Source of the DNA: Acidobacteriaceae bacterium
GTDB lineage: Bacteria; Acidobacteriota; Terriglobia; Terriglobales; Acidobacteriaceae
Reading direction: 5' to 3'
Assembly (NCBI GenBank): GCA_028283625.1
Contig: JAPWKG010000007.1
Coordinates: 186,001 to 250,000, forward strand
DNA: 64,000 nucleotides
Shown here: piece after piece, positions 4,416-64,000 of the stretch
Layout of the letters: the number at the start of each line of letters is the position of its first letter
Numbering within the stretch: position 1 is the stretch's first letter
Position numbers and translations under genes: made by a program
The notes under the pieces: model-generated
Databases searched by the model: none
The model's input: the letters and a program-made list of their open reading frames with translations, nothing else
What the model was told of the DNA's origin: nothing

Positions 4416-4448
4416 GTAGGAGCTGATGCTTTGACGCGCGCGCGGATG

Positions 4449-5036: not shown

Positions 5037-5061
5037 ACGCTGGCTCCCTGGAGAAAGGCGT

Positions 5062-7484: not shown

Positions 7485-7625
7485 TTGAGGCTCCGCCTAA
7501 CGATGATTCGGACAAAAGGTGTCCTGCTGTATGGTGCTACCGGTCTGCTATGCGTGATATCAGACTCTTTTCGTCCTATTTATACCTGTAGACGCTCTTC
7601 TCTCGCAAACGGACGCAGCCCGGCA

Positions 7626-7631
7626 TAAGAT
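7626..7631 (+). promoter_or_regulatory. Putative -10 element of a leaderless promoter
   Basis: TAAGAT ends 7 bases before the ATG at 7639, where no Shine-Dalgarno is present. Transcription would start at or next to the ATG. Confidence 0.45.
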
Positions 7632-7638
7632 TCTTCGC

Positions 7639-8262: not shown

Positions 8263-8361
8263 GTGTGGCTGCGACAGGCACTTGCTCCGGGAGAAGAGGT
8301 AACGGGCGGTTGGCTCTATCAGGAAGGAGTCGTGGAGCGGTCAAAGCAGATCGCTTCGCTC

Positions 8362-8367
8362 TACACT
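8362..8367 (+). promoter_or_regulatory. Putative -10 element before mutY
   Basis: TACACT ends 6 bases before ATG 8374. The purine stretch AGAAGG lies directly against the ATG, too close to act as a normal ribosome binding site. Confidence 0.4.
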
Positions 8368-8373
8368 AGAAGG

Positions 8374-9579: not shown

Positions 9580-9582
9580 CGG

Positions 9583-9588
9583 TACACT
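9583..9588 (+). promoter_or_regulatory. Putative -10 element of a leaderless promoter before the M28 peptidase
   Basis: TACACT ends 7 bases before ATG 9596 with no Shine-Dalgarno between. It is the same hexamer and nearly the same spacing as before mutY and trhO. Confidence 0.45.
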
Positions 9589-9595
9589 GCTTGCG

Positions 9596-11257: not shown

Positions 11258-11273
11258 GCTTCGCGTGGTTTGA

Positions 11274-11324
11274 AACGGCAGCGGGCCGGAGAGCATCCTG
11301 TTCTCCGGCCCGCTGCCGTTTTCT
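11274..11324. terminator. Bidirectional terminator, 19-bp stem
   Basis: The arms at 11274-11292 and 11302-11320 (AACGGCAGCGGGCCGGAGA and its complement) form an uninterrupted stem. A TTTT tract follows on the plus strand and an AAA run precedes it. It separates the convergent peptidase and lipoprotein genes. Confidence 0.9.
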
Positions 11325-11330
11325 GTGGAC

Positions 11331-12431
11331 TTAGGGCCGGGGCAGGAGGGTGGTGGTTGCCGGGCTTTCGTTGCCGCTGGCATCCACCGCGGTTACGCTC
11401 CAGCGGCTCGCGGCACCGGCGGGCACGGTTGTGTCGTGGAAGGCCGGTTCGGTAAGAGGCTGGGTGTTCAGCTTGCGGCGTGCGCCGTTGTCTTCGCGAT
11501 AGAGGTTGTATCCCGCAAGGGCAGGGTCTTCGACCGGTTCCCATACGAGGTCGACGGTGCCGTTGTCAAAGCCGGCGGCGGTGAGGTTGGTGGGAGCCAG
11601 CGGGGGATAGATGTCGTGCAGTGTGTAGGGCTGCACCGGGGAGTCGGCCCCGAGCACGGTAAGGGTGTGCCCGGCGACGGTGAGGGTACGCTCCCGACGC
11701 GCCACATAGCTGTAGGCAACGTCTTCCAGCGCGGAGTTGTCCAGCATGGTGCCGGTAGTGGCGGTGCGGGACTGATCTTCGGTGATAAAGGTTTCCTGGT
11801 CGTGCTGGTGATGCGCGGCGGCCTTATGCCGGGCTTGCGGATCGGCGAGATTCCGGGTGATGAGGATCCTTGCCGTGTCGTCGCCGGGTTGCGGCTGCCA
11901 GCTCAGCACGACGCCGAGGCGCGAGCCTCGAACCTGGAAGTGCTGGACGGGCGCGGGGGCTGCTCCAGCGAGGGTGAAGGCCGGAGCGGAGAGCCCTGCG
12001 GATCGGCCGCGGCTGTTCTTGAGTTCGACGCGATAGGCGATCAGACGAGGCTCCCCAGTGGCGAGCGCAGGCGGCAGAGGATCGGTCAGGGTGATGATGG
12101 AGCCCGGGTAGAGGAACTCGGGAATGGCGGCGCCGGTGATGGTTTGGCAGGCGGCTCCAGGATGGTCCTCGCGGCAGAGCCGGAGCCCGAGCCGCTTGTC
12201 GTGAATGATCAGGTGGTCGGTGGTGCGTTCGGGCACGGAGAGCGAGATCTGTACCGCGTCTGCGATGCGCTCGGCCGACATCTTGTGGGACGCCGCCGGC
12301 AGGGCGAGCGAAGGAGGATGCGGCGGCCCGGGGCTCGCGCATCCGGCAGCCAGCAGGCAAAGCATTGCAGCAGAAAGGGTTGCGCCGTATCTGCGGCAGC
12401 CCTCGTCCTCTCGGTGATTCATTCCAGCCAT
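11331..12431 (-). CDS. Lipoprotein with fibronectin type III-like domains
   Basis: Start chosen at ATG 12431, because TAGGCT (a -10 match) lies 7 bases upstream as in other leaderless genes nearby; ATG 12422 is the alternative. The 366-residue product has a lipoprotein signal ending in LCLLAAGC. Two or three immunoglobulin-like repeats follow, with the fibronectin type III marks VVLSWQPQPGDDTARILITR and VDLVWEPVEDPALAGYNLYR; the last ends near WSVTAVDASGNES. Such lipoproteins are probably surface or periplasmic binding scaffolds; no catalytic motif was seen. It is divergent from the XRE-cupin regulator, with the two promoter elements touching. Confidence 0.78.
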   Translation of the reverse strand: MAGMNHREDEGCRRYGATLSAAMLCLLAAGCASPGPPHPPSLALPAASHKMSAERIADAVQISLSVPERTTDHLIIHDKRLGLRLCREDHPGAACQTITGAAIPEFLYPGSIITLTDPLPPALATGEPRLIAYRVELKNSRGRSAGLSAPAFTLAGAAPAPVQHFQVRGSRLGVVLSWQPQPGDDTARILITRNLADPQARHKAAAHHQHDQETFITEDQSRTATTGTMLDNSALEDVAYSYVARRERTLTVAGHTLTVLGADSPVQPYTLHDIYPPLAPTNLTAAGFDNGTVDLVWEPVEDPALAGYNLYREDNGARRKLNTQPLTEPAFHDTTVPAGAASRWSVTAVDASGNESPATTTLLPRP

Positions 12432-12438
12432 CGCTCTG

Positions 12439-12448
12439 AGCCTAGCAT
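12439..12448. promoter_or_regulatory. Overlapping divergent -10 elements
   Basis: The 10 bases AGCCTAGCAT contain TAGGCT on the minus strand (12444-12439), 7 bases before ATG 12431, and TAGCAT on the plus strand (12443-12448), 5 bases before ATG 12454. The two hexamers share the central TA, so the two transcripts would start back to back. Confidence 0.35.
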
Positions 12449-12453
12449 CTGCG

Positions 12454-13356
12454 ATGCAACGGTGGGAGCAAGCATCTTTTCGGCGAAAAACACCGTCCGT
12501 CTTTAGCAGAAGCGTTATGCCCGAAAAATCCACCCGTTCCATTGAGGATGTGACTGTGAATCAACAAACAGCACAAAACTCCGCTCCTGATCCAGCCGTT
12601 GTAGCAAAGCCGCATCTGTTACGTCTTGATGTTGCCGTTACCGCCGCCGGGGAGGATGCTGAGCAAACCGCAGTTACACCGGAAGCCGCAGAAGCCTTTA
12701 TCGAAGGCAAACGCATCGGTGAACGCATCAAGTACCTGCGTACCCGCAAGAGCATGGGCCTGGTGGAGCTGGGGCGGCATACCGGACTCTCCGCCAGCTT
12801 CCTTTCTCAGCTTGAAACTGGCCGCGTGGTGCCGACGTTGCGTAATCTGGCACGCATCGCGATGGTGTTCTCCAAGGACCTGAGCTATTTCTTCGAGCCG
12901 GAGCGGCCGGAATCTTTTCGCATTCTGCGGTCGAAGGAACGGCAGCGACAGCCGCAGTCCGGCACGACGGTGCCTGCATACTTTTTCGAGAGCCTGGGGC
13001 AGATTCCGGGCGACGTGCCCGTCACGCCGTATGTGACCGAGTTTCTGCCGGTCGCAGAAGATGCTCCGACCAGACCGCATCAGTACGTCGGAGCCGAGTT
13101 TCTCTACGTGCTGGCCGGACGGCTGGAGATCTGCCATCAGGGGCGTGCCGAGGTGATCGAAGAAGGCGATGCGGTTTACTTTCACGCGGATGCTTCCCAC
13201 CGTTACCGCAGTCTGGACGACAAGCCGTGTACGGCGTTGATTCTGACCATGCCGGATCGCACGACCCGCAACAACGGCAACGGCCTACAGGCCTCGGCCG
13301 CGGTGCGCGGGCCCATCGCGGCTACGGCACCGAAGCTGACGCGCGGAGTCGCCTGA
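12454..13356 (+). CDS. XRE-family regulator with C-terminal cupin domain
   Basis: A 300-residue transcription regulator. After a disordered N-terminus of about 85 residues comes a helix-turn-helix (GERIKYLRTRKSMGLVELGR and SASFLSQLETGRVVPTLRNL, about residues 92-150). A cupin sensor domain follows at about 205-275 (GAEFLYVLAGRLEICHQGRA and EEGDAVYFHADASHRYRS). This HTH-cupin layout is found in regulators such as PuuR and SutR, which sense small metabolites. The start is uncertain: ATG 12454 has a TAGCAT element 5 bases upstream, and ATG 12517 would also give an intact protein. Its target is unknown; the divergent lipoprotein gene is the obvious candidate. Confidence 0.85.
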   Translation: MQRWEQASFRRKTPSVFSRSVMPEKSTRSIEDVTVNQQTAQNSAPDPAVVAKPHLLRLDVAVTAAGEDAEQTAVTPEAAEAFIEGKRIGERIKYLRTRKSMGLVELGRHTGLSASFLSQLETGRVVPTLRNLARIAMVFSKDLSYFFEPERPESFRILRSKERQRQPQSGTTVPAYFFESLGQIPGDVPVTPYVTEFLPVAEDAPTRPHQYVGAEFLYVLAGRLEICHQGRAEVIEEGDAVYFHADASHRYRSLDDKPCTALILTMPDRTTRNNGNGLQASAAVRGPIAATAPKLTRGVA

Positions 13357-13378
13357 GACGGTATAGACAGTCAAAAGC

Positions 13379-13418
13379 AAAAGGCGCGTAGCTCAGAGTG
13401 TGAGCTACGCGCCTTTTT
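13379..13418. terminator. Bidirectional terminator, 17-bp stem
   Basis: AAAAGGCGCGTAGCTCA (13379-13395), a 5-base loop and TGAGCTACGCGCCTTTT (13401-13417) form a perfect stem with T runs on both strands. It lies between convergent genes. Confidence 0.92.
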
Positions 13419-13422
13419 GTGT

Positions 13423-13965
13423 TTAGAGGTTACCGAGAAGAAGTTCTTCGATCGCCGGCCAATTGTCCACCCGGCGAAAGCCTTCAACAAGGGCGTTGGC
13501 CGGGGCGCTGTAGAGCAGTCCTTCCCCATGGAAGCGGCGCAGCTGCCGGGGATTGTCGTCGATGAGATAGTCACCGCGCAGAATCCCTTTATCTCCGCAG
13601 AAGACGATGTGCGAAGGCGGGATAAAGGGGAAGTGCTCTTCCAGCCATTTGAACTTGGCGTTGAAGCTGGAAGGAATCTCCATGGCCGCGGTGGCGATGT
13701 AGATGTCGTAGTGCATCTGCAGGCTTTTGAGCACGCGCTGCGCCTCCGGCATCACGGTGAGCACGGAGAAGAAGTCATCGCTGCGGATGTAGCGTTCGAG
13801 TGCGCCGATGCGCTCCTGCGGGACGTAATCCCAGAGCCAGCGGCCGTGCAGATCTTCGGTGGTGACGTGCTCGTCGAACTCCTGGTTATAACGCAGAAGA
13901 TGTTCGCCGAGAGCATCGGCCAGAACTTCATCCATATCGACGCAGATGATCTTGCGTTCGCTCAT
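13423..13965 (-). CDS. HAD-family 5'(3')-deoxyribonucleotidase-like protein
   Basis: A 180-residue phosphatase of the NT5C type. CVDMDEVLADALGEHL carries the HAD motif I (DMDEV, with the two catalytic aspartates). IATAAMEIPSSF is the motif II region and GDYLIDDNPRQL is the motif IV aspartate pair. Bacterial members hydrolyse deoxynucleoside monophosphates or related phosphates in the cytoplasm. Start chosen at ATG 13965, which overlaps the upstream stop by 4 bases (ATGA), so the two genes are translationally coupled. Confidence 0.85.
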   Translation of the reverse strand: MSERKIICVDMDEVLADALGEHLLRYNQEFDEHVTTEDLHGRWLWDYVPQERIGALERYIRSDDFFSVLTVMPEAQRVLKSLQMHYDIYIATAAMEIPSSFNAKFKWLEEHFPFIPPSHIVFCGDKGILRGDYLIDDNPRQLRRFHGEGLLYSAPANALVEGFRRVDNWPAIEELLLGNL

Positions 13966-14744
13966 CGCGGTGCCTCCAACTGTTGGGCCGCGTGGAATCG
14001 TTCTCCGGCAGGCCATGCACCGGGACGATCGCGGCGCGGATCGTGAAAAAGAATGCGTGAGCAGCTTTCGCAGGCGAAGAGCTCGTGTTCATGCTCGCGG
14101 CCGGTGAGCTGCTGCCAGCGTTGCGGCCGCACCATCATGCGGCAGGCGCAACACTGCTGCTCGCGTGCCTCTGCGAGCCCGCTGCCGCGCGATTTGGTGA
14201 TGCGGTCATAGAGTGAGAGCGCCGACTCTGCGATGGTGGCACGCAAGGCAAGACGCTCTGCGTTGTGTTGTGCGGTGCGGGCGTTTGCCTCGGTGATGCG
14301 GCGAGCGGCCTCCGTTCGTGCCTGCTCCAGCGAGCGCTCACGAAGCACCAGCAGTTGTTGCGCTTTCGTCTGCTGCTCTTCAAGCGTCTCGGTACGTTCC
14401 ATCGAGGCGAGCTCTTCATCCTCAAACTTCAGAACGGCGTCGCGCAGGAAGCCGATCTCATGTTCCAGTGCGCTGACCTGCGTGGCGCTGGTGGCACTGT
14501 CAAGCTGGCGTACGAGTTTGACGAGCTTGATGCGGCGGTCCTCTGCATCGGAGGAGCAGGTGCGGCGGATCGTGCCTTCGTCTGCCAGCTTCTTGCGCAC
14601 GGCTTCCAGTGCGGCATCTGCCTGCGCACGAAGCTCCTCAGCCTGTTGCACCGAGCGCGGTGCTGCTACAGCTTCAGCGGCAAAGTGTCGAAGCTCGGTG
14701 TCAATGGCTTGTAGAAGGACGAGTTTTTCCAGATCAACGTTCAT
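13962..14744 (-). CDS. Coiled-coil protein with C4 zinc ribbon
   Basis: A 260-residue cytoplasmic protein of the family often annotated as C4-type zinc ribbon domain protein. Residues about 1-185 are a long alpha-helical coiled coil rich in Glu, Ala and Arg. The C-terminus has CCACRMMV and CESCSR, a CXXC pair forming the zinc ribbon. Family members are widespread and some are proposed to act with nucleic acids or ribosomes, but function is not settled. It follows the DUF72 gene by 67 bases and overlaps the nucleotidase by 4 bases, so all lie in one likely minus-strand transcription unit. Confidence 0.85.
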   Translation of the reverse strand: MNVDLEKLVLLQAIDTELRHFAAEAVAAPRSVQQAEELRAQADAALEAVRKKLADEGTIRRTCSSDAEDRRIKLVKLVRQLDSATSATQVSALEHEIGFLRDAVLKFEDEELASMERTETLEEQQTKAQQLLVLRERSLEQARTEAARRITEANARTAQHNAERLALRATIAESALSLYDRITKSRGSGLAEAREQQCCACRMMVRPQRWQQLTGREHEHELFACESCSRILFHDPRRDRPGAWPAGERFHAAQQLEAPR

Positions 14745-14811
14745 CGCGTCGGCACATGCAGGCTAGCACGTTGCGTATACGGTAGTCGTGAGCGGGTGCG
14801 ACAGTCGGGGC

Positions 14812-15594
14812 CTATGCGCGGTGCGAGCGCGTCCGCTTTTTTGCCGAAGCTGTTGAAGATGCGTGCGTTTGTTGCAGGAGTGTTTGCAGCTGCAGCGCAT
14901 TGTCGGCTGCGTGGCCTATGGCGGTGTTGTCGAAGATAACCCAGCTTTGTTGCGCGCGTGATGGCTCTGTAATTTCTGCGGCAAAGCGCTGCAGAAACGA
15001 TGCCGGATACGGCGAGTAGTAGGTGCGCGGTGCGCCGTGCAGGCGCCAGTAGCGCAATGCCTGCCAGCCGCCTGGCTGTGCTGCGAGCGGGGAGCCCTTG
15101 GGTGGGTCCGCGGCAACGCGTGCCACCTCAAAGCCGCGCAACATGCGGTCCACGGCGGGCGCGAACCAGCTTGTGTGGCGTGGCTCGAGAACGACGCTGC
15201 CGGTGTGGAGCTCACGCAGCGTTGTGAAGAACTCGTGCGCGATGCCTTCGTCAAAGGCGAGCTTTGGGGGAAGCTGCACGAGCAGCGGGCCGAGCTTTTC
15301 CCCAAGCTCGCGTACCTGCGCGAGGAATTCCAGCCAGAGCGCGCCGGTGTTGATCAGCTTTGCGGTGTGCGTGATGGTCTTGGGCACCTTGACGGCAAAG
15401 CGGAAGTGCTCCGGCGTAGAGGCTGCCCAGCGCGCCCAGGTGCGTGGCCTATGCGGGCGGTGAAAGCTGGAGTTGATCTCAAGACAGCTGAAGCTCTGGG
15501 CTGTGCGCTCCAGGTGCGAGCCCTCCGTGGGAAACAGGTGCGCGAACTCTTTGGGAACGGTCCAGCCGGCGATACCGATGCGGAGTGCGGTCAT
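14812..15594 (-). CDS. DUF72 (YecE) family protein
   Basis: A 260-residue TIM-barrel protein of the DUF72/YecE family. Marks include RIGIAGWTVPKEF at the N-terminus, LEINSSFHRPHRPRTWARWA, FRFAVKVPKTITH, LGPLLVQLPPKLAF, VVLEPRHTSWF and the late YWRLHGAPRTYYSPY. The catalytic role of the family is unknown. ATG 15594 overlaps the hrpB stop by 4 bases (ATGA), so its translation depends on hrpB. Confidence 0.9.
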   Translation of the reverse strand: MTALRIGIAGWTVPKEFAHLFPTEGSHLERTAQSFSCLEINSSFHRPHRPRTWARWAASTPEHFRFAVKVPKTITHTAKLINTGALWLEFLAQVRELGEKLGPLLVQLPPKLAFDEGIAHEFFTTLRELHTGSVVLEPRHTSWFAPAVDRMLRGFEVARVAADPPKGSPLAAQPGGWQALRYWRLHGAPRTYYSPYPASFLQRFAAEITEPSRAQQSWVIFDNTAIGHAADNALQLQTLLQQTHASSTASAKKRTRSHRA

Positions 15595-17951
15595 CGTTTT
15601 CTGCTTTCCTGCGCGGGGGCGTGGGGGTCTTCCGGCCAGGCGTGGCGCGGGTAGCGCCGCATCAGCTCGCGACGTGTGGTTGGGTAGAGTCGCTCCCAGA
15701 AGCCTGCGAGATCCGTGGTGGTTTGCACCGCGCGCTGGTTGGGCGCGAGCAGGTGTACGACGACCGGTATGCGCTCGGGGCCGATACGCGGTGTTTCGCG
15801 CATGCCGAAGAAGTCCTGCAGGCGCGAGGCGATCCAGGGTGCGCGATCCTGCTCGTAGTGGATTGGGGTTTGGCGCCCGCGGTCGAGCCGCACGCTGGCT
15901 GGGGCAAGGTCCTCAAGCCGCCGTGCGTTGCCTTGTGCGGCGAGCAGTGGCAGCAGGCCTCGTTGGGTTGCCGTGCGCAGCTCGCTGAAGCTCTTGAGTC
16001 CGTAGGCGAGCTCGCTGAGCGCCGCTTCGAGGTCTGGCGGTGGAAGCCCTGCAAAGCGCATGCGAGCCAGAAAGTTTTCCAGTGCTTCACGATCCACGAA
16101 GCCTTCGATGCCGGATTCGAGCGCCTTTTTTGCCAGCAGGTGCGCCGCTTCTTCCTCGCTGGCGGGCCGTCGCGTTTCTTCCAGAACGAGGCGATCAAAG
16201 AGCAGCTCGCTGAGTCGCTCGACGCGCTCGCCGGTGCGATGCCACTCAAGTCGAGTCTCTTCCCGGATGCGTTCAGGAAAGAGTTCGAGTAACCACTCCG
16301 GTTCGAGCCGCGCGTGCAGCCGAACGATGGGTAACGGTTTGTCGCTGCGGTTTTCCGCATCGAGCGCGAGCAGAAACTCATACGGCGGCGGCTCTTTGGC
16401 AAATTCGGCTGCGACGCCGTTGGAGAGCATCATCTGCCTGCCAGCGCGGCGACGTGCGACGCGGTCAGGGAAGCCGGTGAGCAGGCTGAGCAGCAGGGCG
16501 TCGTCGTCGTGGGCCGTGTTGCCGCGCGGTGCGTGTGCAAGACGCAACAGCTGCTCAGCCTGTTGCTGCACGCGTGGATCCATCGGACGGTCGAGTGCTT
16601 CAAGCAGATCAGAGGCTTCAAGCGTGAGTCCGGCCGCAAGCAGCGCTGCCGCTTTGCAGCCCGCTGCGCCGATGCCGCGATCGATGGCATCGACGACGAC
16701 GCGCGCCAGCCGTGGTGGGAGCGGGAAGCGAGCCAGCCTGGCTGCCATTGCTTCATTGCCGGCCCCGAGGGCGTCCAGCAGCGCTTCTGCGGAGCGCACG
16801 GCTTCGGCGGGAGGCGCGTTGAGCCAGGGCACCTGGTCAGGGTGCGCGATGTGCATGGCGCGCAGGCTGAGCAGAAGCTGAGTAAGGTCGGTGCGCTCGA
16901 TCTCGGGCGTTTCCTGCGGGGCACGCAAGGCGAAATCCTCTTCAGGATAAAGACGGAGGACCCGGCCGGGTTCGGTGCGTCCTGCGCGGCCTGCGCGCTG
17001 TATAGCGGAGGACTGGCTGATGCGGCCGACGCGCAGTTCCGGAAGGCCGGTCCAGGGTGAGACGCTGGCAAAGCGCGCCAGACCACTATCAATCACAGCG
17101 TTGACGCCATCGACGGTGACCGAGCTTTCCGCAACGTTGGTGGCAAAGAGAACCTTGCGCTCTTTCGATGGTGAGACCGCGCGATCCTGTTCCGCAGGGG
17201 AAAGGCTGCCGTGCAGCGCAAGCGCCTGCGCGCCGTACTTTCGGGTGAGTGTTTCGCAGCTACGCATACAGCGGCGGATCTCGGCCTGGCCAGGCAAAAA
17301 GATCAGGATGTTGCCGCGAGTGTCTTCGCGCAGCATGTGTTCGAGCGCACTTTGCACCTGCTCCTCGAGCAGCGGCTGTACGGGGCGAAGGTGGGTCACT
17401 GTAAGTGGAAACGCGCGGCCCTCGGAGCGCAGAACAGGACAGTTGCCGAGGAAGTGTGCCACGGGCGCGGCGTCGAGCGTGGCGGACATCACGATGAGCC
17501 GAAGCTCGGGGCGTTGGTGTTGCAGGCGGCGCAACAGAGCGAGTGCGAGATCGGTGTCGAGGTGGCGCTCGTGAAACTCGTCAAGAAGCACGGCGTCGAC
17601 GCCACGCAGCAGGGGGTCGGTGAGGAGTCTGCGGTTCAGGATGCCTTCGGTGATAAAGCGCAGGCGCGTGTTGGGGCCGCAGCGCTCCTCGAAGCGCACC
17701 TGATAGCCCACCGTGCCACCGACCTCTTCGCCCAGTTCGTAGGCCACGCGGCGGGCTGCAAGACGCGCCGCAATGCGCCGAGGCTCCAGCACCAGCACCT
17801 GTCCGGTGACGAGCTCGAGCAACGCGGCAGGCACGCGTGTGGTTTTTCCGGCGCCGGGGGCGGCCTCAAGCACCAGGTTTGGCGTGGTCTGCAGCAACTG
17901 CTGAAGCTCGGGCAGAAGCTGGTCGATAGGAAGGGAAGGCCGGCTGTTCAT
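15591..17951 (-). CDS. hrpB: ATP-dependent helicase HrpB
   Basis: A DEAH/DExH-type RNA helicase of 786 residues, slightly shorter than the usual 810-850. Motif I is AAPGAGKTTR, motif II is LLDEFHERHLD, motif III is MSATLD and motif VI is QRAGRAGRTEPG. The HA2 and HrpB C-terminal domains follow, ending with RRELMRRYPRHAWPEDP, typical of this family. Its cellular substrate is not established; deletion is tolerated in many bacteria. It leads a unit of hrpB, DUF72, zinc ribbon and nucleotidase genes. No convincing promoter was found upstream. Confidence 0.95.
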   Translation of the reverse strand: MNSRPSLPIDQLLPELQQLLQTTPNLVLEAAPGAGKTTRVPAALLELVTGQVLVLEPRRIAARLAARRVAYELGEEVGGTVGYQVRFEERCGPNTRLRFITEGILNRRLLTDPLLRGVDAVLLDEFHERHLDTDLALALLRRLQHQRPELRLIVMSATLDAAPVAHFLGNCPVLRSEGRAFPLTVTHLRPVQPLLEEQVQSALEHMLREDTRGNILIFLPGQAEIRRCMRSCETLTRKYGAQALALHGSLSPAEQDRAVSPSKERKVLFATNVAESSVTVDGVNAVIDSGLARFASVSPWTGLPELRVGRISQSSAIQRAGRAGRTEPGRVLRLYPEEDFALRAPQETPEIERTDLTQLLLSLRAMHIAHPDQVPWLNAPPAEAVRSAEALLDALGAGNEAMAARLARFPLPPRLARVVVDAIDRGIGAAGCKAAALLAAGLTLEASDLLEALDRPMDPRVQQQAEQLLRLAHAPRGNTAHDDDALLLSLLTGFPDRVARRRAGRQMMLSNGVAAEFAKEPPPYEFLLALDAENRSDKPLPIVRLHARLEPEWLLELFPERIREETRLEWHRTGERVERLSELLFDRLVLEETRRPASEEEAAHLLAKKALESGIEGFVDREALENFLARMRFAGLPPPDLEAALSELAYGLKSFSELRTATQRGLLPLLAAQGNARRLEDLAPASVRLDRGRQTPIHYEQDRAPWIASRLQDFFGMRETPRIGPERIPVVVHLLAPNQRAVQTTTDLAGFWERLYPTTRRELMRRYPRHAWPEDPHAPAQESRKR

Positions 17952-18372
17952 GAAAGCAAAAAAGGAGGGGAACCTCGTTTGTCATGATCGCAAAAGTTTC
18001 TGGCGAAACCAAAAAATCCCTTGAATCCTTTGAGGCAGACCATGATCCAATCAGCAAGGTAAACTGCGGAACCCAAGTTGGAGACTCCACCATTTGAAGA
18101 AGATGGTCCTAGGATCGTTGAAGATCGTTGAAAAGAGAGTTTCCGGGCCCTGCATGTAGTTGGCAAGGTTGTTTTGTGTCCCGGCTTTACGGTGCGTAAG
18201 CGTAGTAGGATCACGCTCGATCAGGCATTAACCAGGAAAGAGTTACTAGAAATTTACGGGCCCGCTGCGAAGACGTGAGCGGCCTGCGACACGGCGAAAG
18301 AGTCAGATGGAGTCCGTGTAGTAGAGCCACAAACGTAATTTAAGATGCACAGTGTATTTGAATGAGTAGTGT
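17952..18372. other. Divergent intergenic region, hrpB / RND efflux operon
   Basis: No gene was supported here. A 10-bp tandem repeat GATCGTTGAA lies at 18113-18132. AGTGTAT occurs twice, at 18351-18357 and 18368-18374, just before the adaptor gene. The same AGTGTA word occurs at 25018-25023 upstream of the TetR gene and may be a regulator site. Confidence 0.4.
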
Positions 18373-54786: not shown

Positions 54787-57700
54787 GTGTTTGCCCGCGG
54801 TACATCAGTTCGCTTCGGTGAAAGGAAGGCTGTACGCCGCTTTGGCGTGCGCTGGCGCTGCTGGGTTGCGCTCTTGCTGTCGATCGGTGGCGGATTGGCG
54901 GCGCAACAGAAGAGGCTTGCGCCGGAGCCACGCCTGACGGTGCAGAGCTGGACGGTGGGCCAGGGTCTACCGCAGAACTCCGTGCTGAGCCTGTGCCGCA
55001 CACGAGACGGCTTCTTGTGGGTAGGAACTTTGGGAGGGCTTGCGCAGTTTGATGGCGCACGCTTTCGCGTCTTTCGTGCGTTGGATGGCAATACGATTCA
55101 AAGCGATGCCGTGAAGTTTCTTGCGGAGGATCGCGAGGGGCGTTTATGGATCGGCAGCAGCAAGGCGATTACGCTCTACCGTCACGGAGTTTTTACGCCG
55201 TTTGAAGGCGCACCCGAATTTTTACGGGAAGGCATTTCGGAGTTGACGGCCGATGCGGAGGGTGGGGTCTGGCTGGTCAATCGTAAAGGCCGGGTTGTGC
55301 AGAGCGATGGCACGAAGGTGCAGAGCATTGCAACGTCGGCTCCGGTGGTAAGCCTGAGCCGTGCTCCCGGTGGTGGCGTTTGGGCGGCCTCGCGTGATGG
55401 CTTCTTCCTGTTGAGGAAAGATCATCCGGTTTCAACGGTTTGGGGCAAAGGCAGCGGATTTGCTGCGGTGCATGCGAGTGGGTCTGGCACTGTGCTGGCG
55501 CGGGGAGAGCACGGCACAGTGCTGCTGGAGCATGGCGTCCTGCATCGTTGGCCAACGCTGCACCATGTCTGGCACAGCGCCGCTGACGGTGATGGCGATA
55601 GCTTCTGGATTACGGTGGAAAACGGCATTGCGCTGGTAGAAGACGGGAAGGTGTTGCGTTCGATGAGCACGAAGGACGGGCTCGCGGACAGCGATATGGA
55701 AGCGCTACTGCCGGATGGTGAGGGCGGTGTTTGGGCAGGAGCGTATACGGCTGGCTTACAGCATCTCTACCATGGACTTTTTGTTTCGTACGACCAGCGT
55801 GACGGTCTTCTGGAAGGCCCTTACAGCATGGTGGCCTCTGATCCTCAGGGGGCTGTCTGGATTGGAGGAACGGCGGATGGGGCCGCGCAGGCGAGCCATG
55901 TGCTGATGCGGGTCGCTCCGGGTGGGATCGAACGCTACGGCGTGCGCCAGGGGCTGCAGACGGGGCAGCCAATGGGGATGAGCCTGGACAACGATGGGCG
56001 AGCGACGTTCGCGATCGCGCCAGCAGGCATTTTTCAGGGTAGTAAGGGGAAATTCGTTCCGCTCTACACTTCGCCCGAGGGCGCGTATCCGACAGCGTTA
56101 CTGCGCGACCACGAGGGCAATCTTTGGTTCAGCATGCATGGCGGTGTTTTGCACGAACAGCTGGAGGGCGGCGGCAACCGTTTGTGGACTGAGCGCGATG
56201 GTCTGCTGGATACCTCGATCTGGGCGCTAGCGGAGGATAGGATGCATCGGCTGTGGGTGGCGAGTTCCAAGGGGGTGACGCTGCTCGACGCAACGGCCCA
56301 GCGTTCACCGCAGAGTTATCCTCTGGGCTTTATCGGCTCGGTTTACCCTGATCCGTTTGTCGCACAGGGAGTCTGGATGGGGTCGTTTCAGGGGCTGCGC
56401 TACTTCAACGGAAGTGTCTTTCGCTCACTCACCCAGCGCGACGGGCTGCCCAGCGACACTGTGATTTCTATGGCGCGCGATGCACAGGGCAATCTGTGGG
56501 CAGGCAGCGCGAATGGGATTTTTCGTCTGGAAGCTGAGGAGCTTCGGCGCTGGATGTCAGGCGAGGCCGTTCCCTTTCATGTGCGCGTTTTTGGAAGCAA
56601 CGATGGTCTGCTGAGCAGTCAGGTTATCGACGTCGGGCAGAATACGCTGACGCAGACCCCGGATCATCGTTTGTGGTTTGCTACGACCAAGGGGATCTCC
56701 GTAGTGAGGCCGGAGCAGGTGCGCAACGAGCCTTTGCAGGCTACGGTGCAACAGGTTTCTGTCGATGGAGTACGTCAGCCTGCTGAGGGAGACTTCGTCA
56801 TCGGTGCCGGCCGGCATACGGTCAAGATGGAATACACCGCGCCGGAGCTGATGGATGCCAAGCGTGTTGTTTTTGCGTACAAGCTGGAGGGGTGGGACAA
56901 GGGCTGGGTGAATGCGGGCGGAAGCCGCGAGGTTTCCTACGCCGCACTGCCTCCGGGGCGTTATCTCTTCCGTGTGCGTGCGTCGTATGCTGATGCGGTC
57001 TCTGCTGTGAGCACCGCGGAGGTGGCACTCAGGTTGCGCCCGTACTTTTACCAGACACGCTGGTTTGATTTGTTGCTGTGTGGGCTTGCAGGCGCTGCAA
57101 TTTGGTTTTTGGCCCGCGTGTTTGCCGGGGCTTCCGAGCGTCGTCTCGAAGCGTTCTACCAAGTGCGATTGGACGAGCGCAACAGGATTGCGCGACAGCT
57201 GCACGACACTCTGATTCAGGAGGTCGTAGGAACCACGCTAAGCCTTGAGGCGTTCAGTGATCGGATATCCCGGACGGATGATCCCGATCCGAAGGAAAGA
57301 AGCCTGGGCCGGGAGTTGAGCCATGCGCTGGAGTCATTGCAGGGGATCATTCGTCGCGGTCGACAGGCGCTTGTGGAGTTGCGCGATCAGGAATCCGTGA
57401 TTGTTGACCTTCCTGCGGCGTTACGCCAGGTGCAGCACGAGCTTTGGAGAGGAGGCGGCCCGGCGTTTGAGTTTGCGTCCACCGGCGTTTCGCCTACGTT
57501 TCTCGTGCCTATGTACGATGAGGTTTACAGCATTGTGCGCGAGGCGCTGATCAACGCGTTTCATCATAGCCAGGCGAGCAGCATACGCTTATCCATTGCG
57601 TGTAGACCGTTTCGTGTCGAGTTTGTCGTGGAAGATAACGGTGTGGGTATGCCGTCGCCTTTGCGTGCATCTATGCGGCCTGGACATTTTGGTTTGCAAA

Positions 57701-57840
57701 CCATGCAGGAGCGTGCGGAACGTATCGGTGCGGTTTTACTGCTGGAGGCGGTCGAGGGCGGTGGCACGCGTATCCGCTTGATTGTGCACCGCCGCTTGTG
57801 GCGGACGCCTTGGCGTGAAGAGAGGCGGGGGAGAGCGTGA
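54787..57840 (+). CDS. Sensor histidine kinase with two-component propeller and Y_Y_Y domains
   Basis: A 1017-residue membrane sensor. GTG 54787 starts a signal peptide or first helix (RWRCWVALLLSIGGGLAAQ). Then follow about ten propeller repeats, for example DGFLWVGTLGGLAQFDG, NLWFSMHGGVLHE, GVWMGSFQGLRYFNG and NLWAGSANGIFRLE. A Y_Y_Y domain is next (AYKLEGWDKGWVNAGGSREV), then one membrane helix near residue 760. The HisKA_3 box ERNRIARQLHDTLIQEV has the phospho-accepting His, and the HATPase has REALINAFHHSQA and VEDNGVGMPSP. It passes phosphate to the NarL-type regulator whose ATG touches its stop. Such sensors often bind oligosaccharides; a link to the fructan locus is only positional. 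Confidence 0.93.
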   Translation: MFARGTSVRFGERKAVRRFGVRWRCWVALLLSIGGGLAAQQKRLAPEPRLTVQSWTVGQGLPQNSVLSLCRTRDGFLWVGTLGGLAQFDGARFRVFRALDGNTIQSDAVKFLAEDREGRLWIGSSKAITLYRHGVFTPFEGAPEFLREGISELTADAEGGVWLVNRKGRVVQSDGTKVQSIATSAPVVSLSRAPGGGVWAASRDGFFLLRKDHPVSTVWGKGSGFAAVHASGSGTVLARGEHGTVLLEHGVLHRWPTLHHVWHSAADGDGDSFWITVENGIALVEDGKVLRSMSTKDGLADSDMEALLPDGEGGVWAGAYTAGLQHLYHGLFVSYDQRDGLLEGPYSMVASDPQGAVWIGGTADGAAQASHVLMRVAPGGIERYGVRQGLQTGQPMGMSLDNDGRATFAIAPAGIFQGSKGKFVPLYTSPEGAYPTALLRDHEGNLWFSMHGGVLHEQLEGGGNRLWTERDGLLDTSIWALAEDRMHRLWVASSKGVTLLDATAQRSPQSYPLGFIGSVYPDPFVAQGVWMGSFQGLRYFNGSVFRSLTQRDGLPSDTVISMARDAQGNLWAGSANGIFRLEAEELRRWMSGEAVPFHVRVFGSNDGLLSSQVIDVGQNTLTQTPDHRLWFATTKGISVVRPEQVRNEPLQATVQQVSVDGVRQPAEGDFVIGAGRHTVKMEYTAPELMDAKRVVFAYKLEGWDKGWVNAGGSREVSYAALPPGRYLFRVRASYADAVSAVSTAEVALRLRPYFYQTRWFDLLLCGLAGAAIWFLARVFAGASERRLEAFYQVRLDERNRIARQLHDTLIQEVVGTTLSLEAFSDRISRTDDPDPKERSLGRELSHALESLQGIIRRGRQALVELRDQESVIVDLPAALRQVQHELWRGGGPAFEFASTGVSPTFLVPMYDEVYSIVREALINAFHHSQASSIRLSIACRPFRVEFVVEDNGVGMPSPLRASMRPGHFGLQTMQERAERIGAVLLLEAVEGGGTRIRLIVHRRLWRTPWREERRGRA

Positions 57841-58466
57841 TGGAGGAGCAGGCGATCCGAGTGCTGATCGTAGACGATCATCCGATGGTTTCTCAAGGAT
57901 TGGCACGCATCATCGAGCAGAAGGAAGGCATGAGCGTCGTGGCGGAAGCGCACGATGGCGTCAGCGGAATTGAGGCCTTTCGTCAGCATCGTCCGGATGT
58001 GACGCTGATGGACCTTATGCTGCCCGACATGAGTGGTACGGAGGCAGTGCAAGCGATTCTTCGCGAGTTTCCCTCCGCACGTGTCCTGATCCTCAGCTCT
58101 TCGGAGGGAGATGCGGACATTTACCGTGCCCTGGAGCGCGGTGCGTGGGGATATCTGTTGAAGGGCACCAGCGGCAAAGAGTTAGTCGAAAGCATAAGTC
58201 GCGCACATGGGGGAGAGCGCTCTTTGCATCCCTCGCTGGCGATGAAGGTTGCAGGCTATGTCTCGGTGGGCGGTTTGAGCGTGCGTGAGGTGGAGGTGCT
58301 GACGCTCGTCGCTGAAGGGTTGAGTAACAAGCGCATCGCGGACAGGTTGTCGATTGCGGAGAACACGGTCAAGATGCACTTGAAAAATATTTTGGGCAAG
58401 TTGAATGCGGCGGATCGTACGCAGGCGGTAACAATCGCACTGCGACGCGGCATCCTTCATTTGTAG
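57840..58466 (+). CDS. NarL/LuxR-family response regulator
   Basis: A 208-residue partner of the upstream kinase. The receiver domain (about 1-120) has LIVDDHPMVSQGLARI, the phosphoacceptor Asp in VTLMDLMLPDMSG and the conserved Lys in YLLKGTSGKEL. The LuxR-type helix-turn-helix at about 145-205 reads LSVREVEVLTLVAEGLSNKR followed by IAENTVKMHLKNILGKLNAA. ATG 57840 overlaps the kinase stop by one base (TGATG); GTG 57837 is an alternative. It is translationally coupled to the kinase. Confidence 0.94.
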   Translation: MEEQAIRVLIVDDHPMVSQGLARIIEQKEGMSVVAEAHDGVSGIEAFRQHRPDVTLMDLMLPDMSGTEAVQAILREFPSARVLILSSSEGDADIYRALERGAWGYLLKGTSGKELVESISRAHGGERSLHPSLAMKVAGYVSVGGLSVREVEVLTLVAEGLSNKRIADRLSIAENTVKMHLKNILGKLNAADRTQAVTIALRRGILHL

Positions 58467-58768
58467 AGCGATAGTTCGCGGAGAATTCATCTGCCCTACC
58501 CGAAAGGGTTATCGAAAGTACGCCCTATTTCAGGGAGATGTGTGGCGTCGATGCCGGGCTATGCTACAGCCACCTGAGCACTCTTCAGACGCATCACGAT
58601 GGTATGTCGAGGGCATAGCCTTCGACCTGTCCTCATGACGCTGCGCTTGTTTCTCGCCGATGAGCCGAGCCGGTTCATGCGCGGAGATGCGCGCACGTAT
58701 CGATGCGTTTTCTCCGAGTGCCAGAGCGTGTACGCGTAGTGACAGATGGCAGTTCCTGGAGGAATCCC
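58467..58768. other. Intergenic region before the S53 peptidase
   Basis: About 300 bases without a supported gene. Two small hairpins lie close together: ACCCGAAAGGGT at about 58498-58509 and CCCTATTTCAGGG at about 58523-58535. Neither has a T-run. They could be leader structures or response regulator sites; nothing more can be said. Confidence 0.4.
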
Positions 58769-59986
58769 ATGAAACATTTTCGATGGAGGATGGCCGTTCG
58801 CAAAGGCTTTGCTCTTGTGGCGTGCGTTGCAGCCGGCTTTGGTGTTGCCTTCGCGCAGAGTGCAGAGACGGTGCAGAAGACGACGCCGAATCTGGTGCAG
58901 AAGCAGGTAGACAACACTGTTCGGACGAAGCTCCCCGGCACGGTGCATCCTTTGGTGGCGCGTTCTGTCGATCAGGGGCAGGTGAATGGATCGACCGCAA
59001 TGCAGCGCATGGTCCTGCTGCTCAATCGTTCGGAGACGCAGCAGAAAGCGCTCGAAACGCTATTGGGCAGCATGCAGGATAAAAGCTCGCCGAACTTTCA
59101 CAAATGGCTTACGCCGGATGATTTCGGAAAGCAGTTCGGCATTTCGGATGCGGATCTTGGAGCCGTAACCGGGTGGTTGAAGTCGCAGGGCTTTACGGTA
59201 AGCGGCGTGGGACGCGGAAGGCAGTGGGTTGAGTTTTCCGGGAACGCTGCACAGGTGAAGCTTGCTCTGGGTACGGAAATGCACACGCTTCGTTACAAGG
59301 GCGAGCAACATCTTGCGAACGTGAGCGCTGTATCCGTCCCGGAGGCGCTGGCCCCCGCGGTGCGGGGGGTGCTTTCGCTCAACGACTTTTACAAGAAGGG
59401 GCATCTGCAAAACCTTCGATCGGTAAGCCGCAACAAGGATGGCCAGTGGACGGCCGTACCGGCCAAGCAAGCCGCGACGGGAGGAGCGTTGCAGCCCGAC
59501 CTGACCTTCGACACGGGCTCCAACGGCGAAGGGGTCATCTATGCGCTCGCGCCGGGCGATCTAAGCACCATCTACAACACGGCGCCGCTGCTCAAGAACG
59601 GCACCAACGGCAGCGGAGTCAAGATTGCTATTGTTGGCCGGTCCGATATTCAGATAACCGACATTGAGACGTACCGGCAGATCTTCGGGCTGACCTCGCA
59701 GGACCCGTTGGTGATTACGAACGGAGTCGATCCTGGCGATGTGGCTAACGACGATGTGGAGTCCACGCTCGATGTGGAGGCAGTGAGCGCGCTGGCTCCG
59801 AATGCAACGATCGAGTTCGTGCAGTCGTCTTCCACGAATACGACGGACGGCGTCGATCTTTCAGCGCTGTACATCGTGGATAATCTTCTGGCTCCGATCA
59901 TGAGCACGAGTTACGGAGCATGCGAGGCTGCGCTTGGGACAGCAGGCAACGCGTTTTATAGCGAGCTTTGGGAGGTGCGCCTTTGA
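58769..59986 (+). pseudogene. S53 family pro-kumamolisin peptidase, truncated at its 3' end by the junction
   Basis: An acid serine-carboxyl protease of the sedolisin family. Start chosen at ATG 58769 with GGAGGA 7 bases upstream; a signal peptide ends near AFAQS. The pro-domain (about 30-205: KSSPNFHKWLTPDDFGKQFG and GVGRGRQWVEFSG) is complete. The catalytic domain begins with LSTIYNTAPL and has DVESTLDVEAVSALAPNA with the Glu/Asp pair. It reaches STSYGACEA and NAFYSELWE, then ends abruptly: after base 59974 only three foreign codons and a stop follow. About half of the catalytic domain, including the GTS active serine, is missing. The break coincides with a change to alphaproteobacterial sequence. 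Confidence 0.9.
59970..59977. other. Junction between acidobacterial and rhizobial sequence
   Basis: The S53 reading frame is normal through Glu at 59972-59974 and the LivJ-type frame becomes normal from Gly at 59971-59976, so the breakpoint falls in this short overlap. Both genes are cut there. No repeat, transposase or attachment site is visible. Confidence 0.85.
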
Positions 59987-61005
59987 CGGGGCCGCTGGCC
60001 TCCATTGGCGACCAGTTCAAGGCGGGAGCGCAGGCAGCAGCTGACGCCATCAACGCCAAGGGCGGCGTGTTGGGGCACAAGATCAAGATCGATCTCGAGG
60101 ACGACCAGTGCGACCCAAAGCAGGCCGTCTCCGTTGCCAACCGTATCGTCGCCTCGGGCATTCAGTTCGTTGATGGCCATGCCTGCTCAGGCGCGAGCAT
60201 TCCGGCGTCGGCGGTTTACGCCGAAAACGGTGTGTTGATGATGACGCCTGCATCTTCCAATCCGGTGCTTACAGACGCTGCGGCCGAAAAAGGCTGGTCG
60301 ACGATCATGCGGCTTTACACGCGTGACGATGCCCAGGGTGCTTTTATCGGCCCATGGATCGCCAAGAACTATGCTGGCAAGAACGTCGTCATCCTTCATG
60401 ACAAGACGGCATATGGCCAGGGCGTGGCAAAGGCGGTGCAGACATCCATGGGCGAGAATGGCCTGAAAGAGGTCTTCTTCGACGGGATCAATCCAGGCGA
60501 CAAGGATTATAGTGCCGTTGTCACCAAGTTGAAGGAAGCCAAGGCAGATGTCGTGTACTTTGGCGGCTATCATCCGGAAGCAGGGCTAATTCTGCGCCAG
60601 GCGTCCGATCAGGGTGTGAAGTTCCAGCTTATCATGCCGGACTCGATCTCCACGCCGGAGTTCTGGCAGGTCGCCGGTCCAAGTGGCGAAGGCACGCTTT
60701 TCGTTTTCCCCTCCGACCCGCAGGCAAAGCCTGAGGCGAAGGAAGCAGTTGAAAAGATCTCTGCCGGTGGCTTCAAGCCCGAAGGATTCACGCTCTTCTC
60801 TTACGCTGTCGTCCAGGCCATTGCCCAGGGCGTCGAACGTGCCGGCGACGTCGATCCTTCGAAGGCGGCTGAATCGTTGAAAAATGGCCAGCCGGTCAGC
60901 ACTGTCGTTGGTGAGATCGCATTCGATGAAAAGGGTGACCTCAAGAACGCAAGCTACGACATCAACCGGTGGAGCAACGGCAAATACGCTCCAATGAAGC
61001 AATAA
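59971..61005 (+). CDS. Branched-chain amino acid ABC transporter binding protein (LivJ-like), 5' truncated
   Basis: The periplasmic substrate-binding protein of a Liv-type ABC importer. The sequence enters at GGAPLTGPLASIGDQFKAGA, which in family members follows a 25-30 residue signal peptide and first strand; these are missing. The rest is complete to NGKYAPMKQ and includes DDQCDPKQAVSVANRIV, the ligand loop GHACSGASIPASAVYAE, TPASSNPVLTD and DKTAYGQGVAKAV. The best resemblance is to rhizobial LivJ proteins. A TTG at 59968 is in frame but belongs to the other side of the join and is not a real start. The hairpin at 61015-61042 follows. Confidence 0.9.
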   Translation, partial: GGAPLTGPLASIGDQFKAGAQAAADAINAKGGVLGHKIKIDLEDDQCDPKQAVSVANRIVASGIQFVDGHACSGASIPASAVYAENGVLMMTPASSNPVLTDAAAEKGWSTIMRLYTRDDAQGAFIGPWIAKNYAGKNVVILHDKTAYGQGVAKAVQTSMGENGLKEVFFDGINPGDKDYSAVVTKLKEAKADVVYFGGYHPEAGLILRQASDQGVKFQLIMPDSISTPEFWQVAGPSGEGTLFVFPSDPQAKPEAKEAVEKISAGGFKPEGFTLFSYAVVQAIAQGVERAGDVDPSKAAESLKNGQPVSTVVGEIAFDEKGDLKNASYDINRWSNGKYAPMKQ

Positions 61006-61095: not shown

Positions 61096-62448
61096 TTAAG
61101 CGTCAAGGCACTGCATGCGGCGTGAGTGCCGGGCATGATCGACAAGTATTTCGCCAAGTTCGGCCGATACCGGTCGACCGTCCTCAATGAGGACCCGGCC
61201 GTTCACGACCGTGGTGCCGGCCGTCGCAGGGCCGCAACGTAACCAGGCTTCGACAGGGTCGGTATGCGCGCCGGCCAGTGCTACCTCCGACATGCTCCAC
61301 ACAACGAGATCGGCACAGGCGCCAGGCCTGAGGTGGCCAATCTCGTCCTCCCAGCCAAGGCAGGCCGCACCGCCGCGGGTGGCGATGTCGAGCGCGTCGC
61401 GCGCCGACATGGAGTGTGGGCCATTACGGTAGCGCCCGAGCAGCAGCGCGGTGCGCGCCTCCAGCCACATGGAGGCATGGTCGGTGGAAGCCGACCCGTC
61501 GCAGCCAAGCCCGACGCGCATGCCACGAGCGCGGAGGCTCATGGCATCTGCCGAGCCGCCGCCGATCAGCATGTTCGAGCAAGGGCACTGTGTGGCGCAG
61601 ACGCCGGCGTGGGCCAGTCTGCCAATTTCTGCATCGGTGGGGTAGATGAAATGGGCGACCCAGGCGCGCTTGCTTGCCCAGCCAACTCGCTCGAAATACT
61701 CGGTCGGCGTGCAGCCATAGACGTCAGCGCAATACTTGTCCTCCTCGGGGTCCTCGGCGAGGTGGGTGTGCAGCCTGAGGTCATATTTGTCCGCGAGGCG
61801 CGCCGATTCCACCATGATGCGTTCAGTCACGGAAAACAGCGAGCACGGGGCCAACGCCACGCGCGTCATTGAACCCGGCCGCGCATCGTGAAATGCCTCG
61901 ATCAGGCGGATGCTGTCGTCAAGAATTTCGTCTTCGGACTGGACCACGGAGGCTGGCGGCAAGCCACCGTTTTCGACAGAACGTGTCATCGAACCACGCG
62001 TTGCATAAAAGCGGAAGCCGATGTCGTTGCTGGCGCGGATCTGCGCATCGATCAGCTTGGGCCTGGGATGGACATACATATGGTCCATTGATGTGGTGCA
62101 CCCGCCCATCAGAAGCTCGGTCATCGCGATAAAGGTCGACGTGTAAACCGATTCCTCAGTCAGACCCGCCCACATTGGATACAGACCGGTCAGCCACTCG
62201 AACAGCGTACCGTTGGTCACGGGTGCGTAGGAGCGCGTCAGGTTCTGGTACATATGATGGTGCGCGTTGATCAAACCCGGCGTCACCAGCCGGCCAGCCG
62301 CGAAGATGGTTTTCGCAGCGATTGGTTCATCGCCGGCCTTGCCCAGCGAATGAATTCTTTTGTCTTTGATGGCAATCCAGCCGCCGGCGATTTCCCAGCC
62401 ACGGTCGACATACACATATGCATCACGTACCAGCAGGTCCACAGTCAT
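61096..62448 (-). CDS. 8-oxoguanine deaminase / amidohydrolase of the TrzN-AtzB type
   Basis: A 450-residue metal-dependent deaminase of the amidohydrolase superfamily. The metal ligands are in NAHHHMYQNL (HxH after VTPGLINA), LHTHLAED and the downstream VAHFIYP. The catalytic Asp lies in GLGCDGSASTDHASM. Family members with the N-terminal DLLVRDAYVYV and C-terminal ADLVVW frame convert 8-oxoguanine to uric acid or act on related purines and triazines. It is convergent with the LivJ-like gene. It looks rhizobial, like the rest of this end of the window. Confidence 0.88.
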   Translation of the reverse strand: MTVDLLVRDAYVYVDRGWEIAGGWIAIKDKRIHSLGKAGDEPIAAKTIFAAGRLVTPGLINAHHHMYQNLTRSYAPVTNGTLFEWLTGLYPMWAGLTEESVYTSTFIAMTELLMGGCTTSMDHMYVHPRPKLIDAQIRASNDIGFRFYATRGSMTRSVENGGLPPASVVQSEDEILDDSIRLIEAFHDARPGSMTRVALAPCSLFSVTERIMVESARLADKYDLRLHTHLAEDPEEDKYCADVYGCTPTEYFERVGWASKRAWVAHFIYPTDAEIGRLAHAGVCATQCPCSNMLIGGGSADAMSLRARGMRVGLGCDGSASTDHASMWLEARTALLLGRYRNGPHSMSARDALDIATRGGAACLGWEDEIGHLRPGACADLVVWSMSEVALAGAHTDPVEAWLRCGPATAGTTVVNGRVLIEDGRPVSAELGEILVDHARHSRRMQCLDA

Positions 62449-63116: not shown

Positions 63117-63327
63117 GCTTTGTGTCGGCAAAAGGTCGGGGCCGGATCTATCAGGTGTTTCGGTTGACAATCGGCTGACCGTATATCCAGAGCTGGCATG
63201 CGGTAGCGCACTGGCTGCGGGAATGTGCGAGCTGCGGCCTTAGCCGCTACCGCCTTCGGGCCGTTCATGGGCTGCCCGCAATTTCATCTCTTAAGATCGA
63301 GATCATGAAACTTCGCGGCGCGGGGAC

Positions 63328-63406
63328 ACGTAACGGTAAATCCGAACAGGACAAATGCGCCGGAGAGCCGTTCATCGCCAACATCAGGCGTCTGTTACCG
63401 TAACGT
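63328..63406. repeat. 12-bp inverted repeat upstream of the small rhizobial gene
   Basis: ACGTAACGGTAA (63328-63339) and TTACCGTAACGT (63395-63406) are inverted copies with one mismatch, 55 bases apart. The second lies 32 bases before ATG 63438. They could be paired regulator sites. Confidence 0.5.
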
Positions 63407-63437
63407 ACTTCCGTGCCAACCCAAGGAGGATAAGGTG

Positions 63438-63773
63438 ATGACGACAAACTCGAGTGGGGGCCGGGATGGCGTGATGGGAAGAGGAGAGGCAGACGAAAGA
63501 GCTCCGGAAGGTACCGCTCGGCGTGGCCTCTGGCGTCTGATGTTGAGATTGCCCGGGCTTCGGGGCAAGCTGCAAATTCTTGCAGGAAGATCGGAATCGT
63601 TGGCCGGTCTGTGCGAAGCCTATGAAGATGCCAGTGTCACGCTGGAGCGCATGCTCAGGGAACCTGGGGACGCCAACTGCGCCATGATCAAGGAATACCA
63701 GACGATCTGTGGCGAGATCGAGTCCGACGTCATCCAGTACTGTCTCACACAAATCGCCGACGTCCCGGAATAA
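63438..63773 (+). CDS. Small hypothetical protein, 111 residues
   Basis: ATG 63438 has AGGAGG 8 bases upstream, a strong ribosome binding site. The product starts with a Gly/Ser/Arg-rich tail of about 35 residues, then a predicted helical part (LRGKLQILAGRSESLAGLCE, then YEDASVTLERMLRE) and ends CLTQIADVPE. No catalytic motif or membrane segment is seen. I do not recognise the family; the helical body could bind a partner protein. Confidence 0.65.
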   Translation: MTTNSSGGRDGVMGRGEADERAPEGTARRGLWRLMLRLPGLRGKLQILAGRSESLAGLCEAYEDASVTLERMLREPGDANCAMIKEYQTICGEIESDVIQYCLTQIADVPE

Positions 63774-63900
63774 GACGCCTTCTGCTCTAAATTGCAACGA
63801 CTTGTGGTTTTGTTAGCTTTCCAAGTTGCAACTGATTGTCATCCGCGCGATAAGATTGTCTGGTCTACTTTGGCTTTGACATTGCGTAGCGGGGGCGGCG

Positions 63901-64000
63901 ATGAACACCGAAGAAAAATTGTGCGGGCCGCACGACGTATCTGACGAGGAAGGTCGCGCCGAACTCGAAAGACTGCTGGGCGACCAACGTTTCCACGGCA
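63901..64000 (+). CDS. Partial CDS running off the window end
   Basis: ATG 63901 opens a frame of 33 codons to the window edge (MNTEEKLCGPHDVSDEEGRA, then ELERLLGDQRFHG). The segment with RLLGDQRFHG recalls the N-terminal region of large rhizobial signalling proteins with adenylate-cyclase-like or TPR parts, but the piece is too short to say. No clear Shine-Dalgarno precedes it. Confidence 0.4.
   Translation, partial: MNTEEKLCGPHDVSDEEGRAELERLLGDQRFHG

Follow-up and report, generated by a model that had tools for sequence, protein, structure and literature searches.

A very probable chimeric join between acidobacterial and Rhizobiaceae-like DNA inside a broken S53 peptidase gene

Towards the end of a 64,000-nucleotide stretch of an Acidobacteriaceae genome (the window; positions 186,001-250,000 of contig JAPWKG010000007.1, designated C16, which is 268,783 bases in length), the frame of an S53 peptidase gives way in mid-gene to that of a LivJ-type binding protein which lacks its start. 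The locus raises the question of whether DNA of two organisms was wrongly linked during library construction or assembly, or whether foreign DNA entered a living chromosome. The assembly comprises 3,007,180 bases on 31 contigs and is 84.8% complete, with a stated contamination of 1.82%.

The join and the genes on either side

The switch was located at positions 59,972-59,979 of the window (Table 1). The peptidase frame ends in ...NAFYSELWEVRL (translated as ...FYSELWEVRL), with its stop codon at 59,984-59,986, and the native side is secure up to 59,974; the open LivJ frame spans 59,968-61,005. The Pro-kumamolisin activation domain is complete in the broken frame (Pfam, E 3.8e-29), and no part of the S53 catalytic domain was detected there by Pfam. 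Among the best 80 of 207 loci, Rhizobiales proteins were 77-83% identical to LivJ from residue 5 of LivJ onwards (residue 4 in one locus), while the N-terminal stretch of these relatives is absent from it. Records of Shinella, Sinorhizobium and Ensifer are similar at the DNA level from 59,984-59,986 onwards. An earlier note, made from the sequence alone, had described a peptidase frame broken off in mid-gene and a LivJ-type protein starting in mid-protein; the frames, the Pfam domains and the LivJ alignments confirmed this and refined the position of the join. Its statement that no tRNA, integrase or repeat marks the point also held: no tRNA and no Rfam match were found within the window, no integrase was found by Pfam in the six scanned frames right of the join, and not one 10-mer, direct or inverted, was shared between the 300 bases to its left and the 300 bases to its right.

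Table 1. Features around the join (window positions)
Feature	Position	Strand	Remarks
Two-component-regulator-propeller sensor histidine kinase, native	54787..57840	+	Pfam Reg_prop, Y_Y_Y, HisKA_3, HATPase_c
LuxR-type response regulator, native	57837..58466	+	Pfam Response_reg, GerE
5' half of S53 (kumamolisin-like) peptidase gene, broken after ...SELW-E	58769..59974	+	Pro-kuma_activ E 3.8e-29
Join	59972..59979	.	GAG (59,972-59,974) common to C7 start; 59,975-59,979 assignable to neither side
LivJ-type substrate-binding protein gene, Rhizobiaceae-like, 5' end missing	59980..61005	+	Peripla_BP_6 9.7e-53
Amidohydrolase gene, foreign side, complete	61096..62448	-	Amidohydro_1 2.1e-55
Start of stretch like Rhizobium tumorigenes plasmid pRt1078 (hypothetical protein and transporter)	63295..64000	+	Continues past window

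The label 'acidobacterial' given to the left side by the earlier note appears to fit, as large S53 families are found in Terriglobia and the best plasmid match of the sensor histidine kinase was to Granulicella tundricola, at only 29%. The left side belongs to the genome, and its S53 part was matched in 26 of 28 genomes of the genus (the genome itself included).

To the right, the Rhizobiaceae-like stretch measures 22.8 kb and runs from the join to the contig end (C16:268,783). It is made up of the LivJ gene, the amidohydrolase gene, the pRt1078-like block, an arylsulfatase-MoxR-BatD block and a last block which is largely collinear with Neorhizobium galegae pNgVX up to the contig end. The amidohydrolase was 92% identical to a Rhizobiaceae frame across all 450 residues (up to 86% for DNA), and these values, together with those for LivJ, the Shinella, Sinorhizobium and Ensifer DNA matches and the base composition given below, bear out the rhizobial character that had been proposed for this side. 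The caution which the earlier note advised for annotations of the last 4 kb was justified, while the extent was set too small, as the foreign stretch covers 22.8 kb and two more contigs are concerned.

The arylsulfatase-MoxR-BatD block resembles R. leguminosarum pR132501 minus approximately 4.8 kb of operon between MoxR and BatD, where the R. leguminosarum plasmid carries DUF58, DUF4381 and two VWA genes. MoxR is here cut to its first ~58 residues, which are fused in frame to BatD (C16:252817-254304, right of the window); this represents either a real deletion or another chimera. In view of this fusion, and of the finding that LivJ and the amidohydrolase are not adjacent in the 10 genomes where both were matched, the tail may contain further joins or ordinary rearrangements. 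Most tail genes keep one frame for about 20 kb when compared with Rhizobium and Neorhizobium relatives, and the suggestion that the whole tail is a single raw chimeric read was rejected on these grounds. Frame changes were seen near tail bases 10,680 (flavin reductase) and 18,450 (substrate-binding protein) and within the final 2.2 kb; they were not used as evidence because the Neorhizobium reference may itself be broken there. No donor emerged from 394 genomes sampled from the larger family to which a Shinella genome belongs (95 matched at 1e-100, with one or two candidates scored per genome), the best match being 86% at the DNA level over 1.5 kb. A search for further rhizobial genes by way of DUF1127 gave none in the genome, foreign tails included.

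The missing gene half and other foreign contig ends

Contig C7 carries an S53 gene of which only the catalytic half is present, its sequence (GAGCAGGCC) starting at base 1 of the contig with no rhizobial DNA ahead of it. The first bases of C7 (GAGCAGGCCGCAGCAGAAGGG) translate as EQAAAEG, while the S53 half on C16 ends in ...SEL-W-GAG. Six loci with an activation domain were found in the genome (C2, C10, C12, C16 and two on C17) and six with a catalytic half (C2, C7, C10, C12 and two on C17; the query was the S53 catalytic half of a genus mate), such that five loci hold both halves, C16 only the front and C7 only the back. C16 is the only short frame among the six Pro-kumamolisin loci (440 amino acids vs 1183-1595). 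The protein obtained by joining C16 to C7 (...FYSELW followed by EQAAAEGIT...) aligned with the S53 peptidase of a genus mate (...FYNTLWQQAAAEGIT...) without a gap across the point, and the alignment score dropped every time that 1, 2, 5, 10 or 20 residues were trimmed off either side. Based on the front-only and back-only loci, the gap-free alignment and the trimming scores, the contig that truly follows C16 at the break is, as judged from sequence, most likely C7. The two contigs share only the three bases GAG, and the continuation therefore rests on fit and not on a long overlap. The position of the missing gene half at the very start of another contig argues for a wrong join and not for natural DNA transfer.

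Rhizobiaceae-like ends were present on three of the 31 contigs (C16, C2 and C4), each run reaching the contig end. The first 11.6 kb of C2 (1-11608) are Rhizobiaceae-like, with frames named by eye as biotin carboxylase-like, peptide-deformylase-like and MgtE-like, and are joined mid-gene to native DNA; this join (11,609) interrupts a TonB-like gene and, across from it, a membrane-protein frame (both named from a look at the sequence). The last 52.5 kb of C4 (C4:211987-264497) are likewise Rhizobiaceae-like, with the join (at about 211,987) within an NADH dehydrogenase-like gene, close to its 3' end. Shinella and Sinorhizobium were among the best matches of the C2 and C4 pieces in the plasmid collection. 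No counterpart contig for the C4 break was found among the 60 contig ends of 3 kb that were searched.

From 11,609 onwards C2 corresponds to C16 from position 1,667 down to 1, with an exact match of 245 bases and 93.6% identity over 1,696 columns, and at the start of C16 the TonB-like gene is uninterrupted, with its own start and a signal-like sequence. The foreign head of C2 thus replaces a locus which is present unbroken in the same assembly. The overlap contains 95 gap columns and 33 mismatches, 83 and 24 of which, respectively, fall in ~470 columns at the outermost end of C16; small gaps crowded at a contig edge are typical of noisy long-read contig ends. Other contig ends were also found to overlap (C30/C27 at about 99%, C12/C23 at 96%, C26/C10 at 96% then 87% and C12/C1 at 82%). 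As a counterpoint to the noisy-read pattern, two of these pairs (C26 start with C10 end and C12 start with C1 end) differ by 4-18% and mainly by substitutions, which are many and occur besides the gaps; they may represent a second related strain in the bin, to judge by the sequences.

We therefore consider it very likely (probability of about 0.95) that no living chromosome carries this join, and that DNA of an acidobacterium-like genome and of a member of the Rhizobiaceae was fused into a chimera during library preparation or assembly. The earlier note had preferred a chimeric assembly, a view now supported by the S53 half at C7 base 1, the switches on C2 and C4 and the unbroken C2 locus.

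As a particular form of chimeric join, and one compatible with it, the molecules may have been fused in the test tube, by phi29 template switching in whole-genome amplification or by ligation, and then read correctly; this route appears possible and rather less probable than not. It would agree with the short sequence shared at two of the joins, namely GAG at C16/C7 and up to 13 bases (CGAAGACAAGCGG) at C2, of which the latter is an upper guess and the former compares two native copies; overlaps in chimeras from multiple displacement amplification (MDA) are reported to peak at 6 nt (PMC4595205). The in-frame MoxR-BatD fusion, at a place where about 4.8 kb more is present on the R. leguminosarum plasmid, would suit it also.

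A real illegitimate recombination, by which a linear rhizobial fragment would have inserted into the chromosome and interrupted the S53 gene, with only one edge assembled, was judged very improbable. The clean mid-gene switch and the single frame of most foreign genes over about 20 kb would be expected under such an event, and GAG at both S53 edges could be read as a 3-bp target duplication. Nevertheless, no rhizobial DNA precedes the S53 half with which C7 opens, the empty site of C2 is present in the same assembly, and three foreign tails, each off a contig end, would need at least two such events; moreover, the foreign edge itself falls inside a gene, and there is neither a repeat at the join nor a tRNA in the window. 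The earlier note had ranked this as the less likely alternative, in agreement with the C7 start, the C2 empty site and the three foreign tails.

Base composition and comparison with the genus

Base composition was compared by means of a model with a 4-base context (genus vs rhizobia), which replaced a first model (5-base context, small training set) that had separated poorly. Sixty 3-kb contig ends as well as longer stretches were scored, which covered 60 of the 62 contig ends; the C16 end was taken within a longer stretch and the C31 end was left out. None of 127 genus control blocks was wrong (below zero); of 60 rhizobial control blocks, 11 were wrong (above zero). The control stretches were distinct from the training stretches, yet shared their genus or rhizobial order, and one Neorhizobium-like control resembles a training stretch.

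The comparison of the two sides which the earlier note had proposed agreed with its division of the contig, in that 60 of 60 1-kb blocks of C16 left of the join were genus-like and 19 of 23 to the right were rhizobia-like. On C4, from 189,498, 22 of 22 blocks were positive (genus), after which 51 of 53 were negative through to the end; on C2, 10 of the first 12 blocks were negative and the next 8 of 8 positive. Negative means were obtained for three of the 60 scored 3-kb ends (C2 start, C4 end and C14 start), while the C10 start and the C22 end scored near zero. In C14:1-7000, 6 of the first 7 blocks lay slightly on the non-genus side. A single-change-point fit placed the switch at 11,622 on C2, at 211,685 on C4 and at 66,125 (window numbering), not 59,975, on C16. 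The last value arises because 62-66 kb is compositionally ambiguous, and the exact C16 join thus rests on gene content. It was also observed that G+C at window positions 4001-18000 is 60-67% per 1 kb, compared to 53-62% elsewhere on the left side; the composition model still scores this stretch as genus.

The join itself was searched for in 28 genomes of the genus (the genome itself included; at most 10 candidates scored per genome), its presence in other genomes being what the earlier note had named as evidence to the contrary. With positions 57,500-61,005 as the query, 12 of the 28 genomes gave a match somewhere and none but the genome itself matched past 59,975. The LivJ protein was matched in 8 of 28 genomes, at 100% in the genome itself and at 23-27% in the other seven. 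For 14 kb of the C16 tail, DNA matches were found in 5 of 28 genomes: the genome itself, one genus mate (G009) and three genomes with matches of 30-60 bases. In G009, an arylsulfatase gene (C5:985125-986601) shows 71% DNA identity to that of the rhizobial tail.

Also very improbable is a real, recent insertion of large rhizobial segments, across phyla and by illegitimate recombination, into several acidobacterium genes, polymorphic in the sampled population so that the empty sites were assembled too. The related proposal of a mixed population, with rhizobial insertions in part of the cells, empty sites in the rest and both versions assembled, is the most improbable of those weighed: it would account for intact and broken versions side by side, but requires several independent cross-phylum insertions in one population, and the join was seen in no genus mate.

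Proposed origin, consequences and known systems

Chimeric joins are what each of the tests indicates, whether on gene halves, on the duplicated locus, on recurrence or on relatives. Two lineages lie on either side of a sharp point in both gene content and composition; another contig carries the continuation of the broken gene for S53 (C7) and for C2 (C16 start), and none was found for C4; and like joins occur elsewhere in the assembly (C2 head, C4 tail). Against a chimera speak the lack of a counterpart for C4, the tail genes that are for the most part intact, the C16 composition change point at 66,125 and the 71% arylsulfatase DNA match in G009.

In the chimeric reading, the sample would have held a member of the Rhizobiaceae beside the main organism, and reads or graph paths of both would have been wrongly linked at three points. 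The contig would then have been extended into the rhizobial genome to its end, leaving its true continuation, C7, as a separate short contig, and binning may have retained the chimeric contigs because C16, C2 and C4 are mostly native.

Three stretches should be kept apart from the main organism: the final 22.8 kb of C16, the initial 11.6 kb of C2 and the final 52.5 kb of C4. About 87 kb of the 3.0-Mb genome looks rhizobial despite a stated contamination of only 1.82%, and users of the genome could misread these stretches as cross-phylum gene transfer. As an assembly fault the join has no significance as biology; it is useful as a warning, and it offers a simple test that needs no reads, namely to check whether any other contig opens, from its very first base, with the complementary half of a broken gene. 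Among the literature titles surveyed, none bore on transfer across phyla between acidobacteria and rhizobia.

The join resembles a horizontally acquired genomic island in that a block of genes of another lineage lies inside a contig. It differs in that it has no second edge (the foreign DNA runs to the contig end, C7 starts without any, and native DNA on both flanks was not found), in that no tRNA in the window, no repeat or shared 10-mer around the join and no integrase in the six scanned right-hand frames was seen, in that the join was matched in none of the other genus genomes (28 with the genome itself, 12 with any match, at most 10 candidates scored in each), and in that another contig retains the empty site of C2. 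The absence of foreign DNA from C7 and this empty site led to the rejection of a real island with both edges. With the MDA chimeras of PMC4595205 the joins have in common that they lie at short shared sequence; the chimeras analysed there link nearby places on one genome, whereas here two organisms are linked. The joins also resemble contigs that mix genomes, a measured fault of metagenome assemblers which a benchmark (PMC11261854) counts for short-, long- and hybrid-read assemblers, with 2.63 (SPAdes) and 22.15 (megahit) chimeric contigs per genome for Illumina and 2.82 for ONT with polished canu. In that benchmark the answers were known, whereas the chimera here was deduced from split gene halves and from a locus present twice in a finished assembly.
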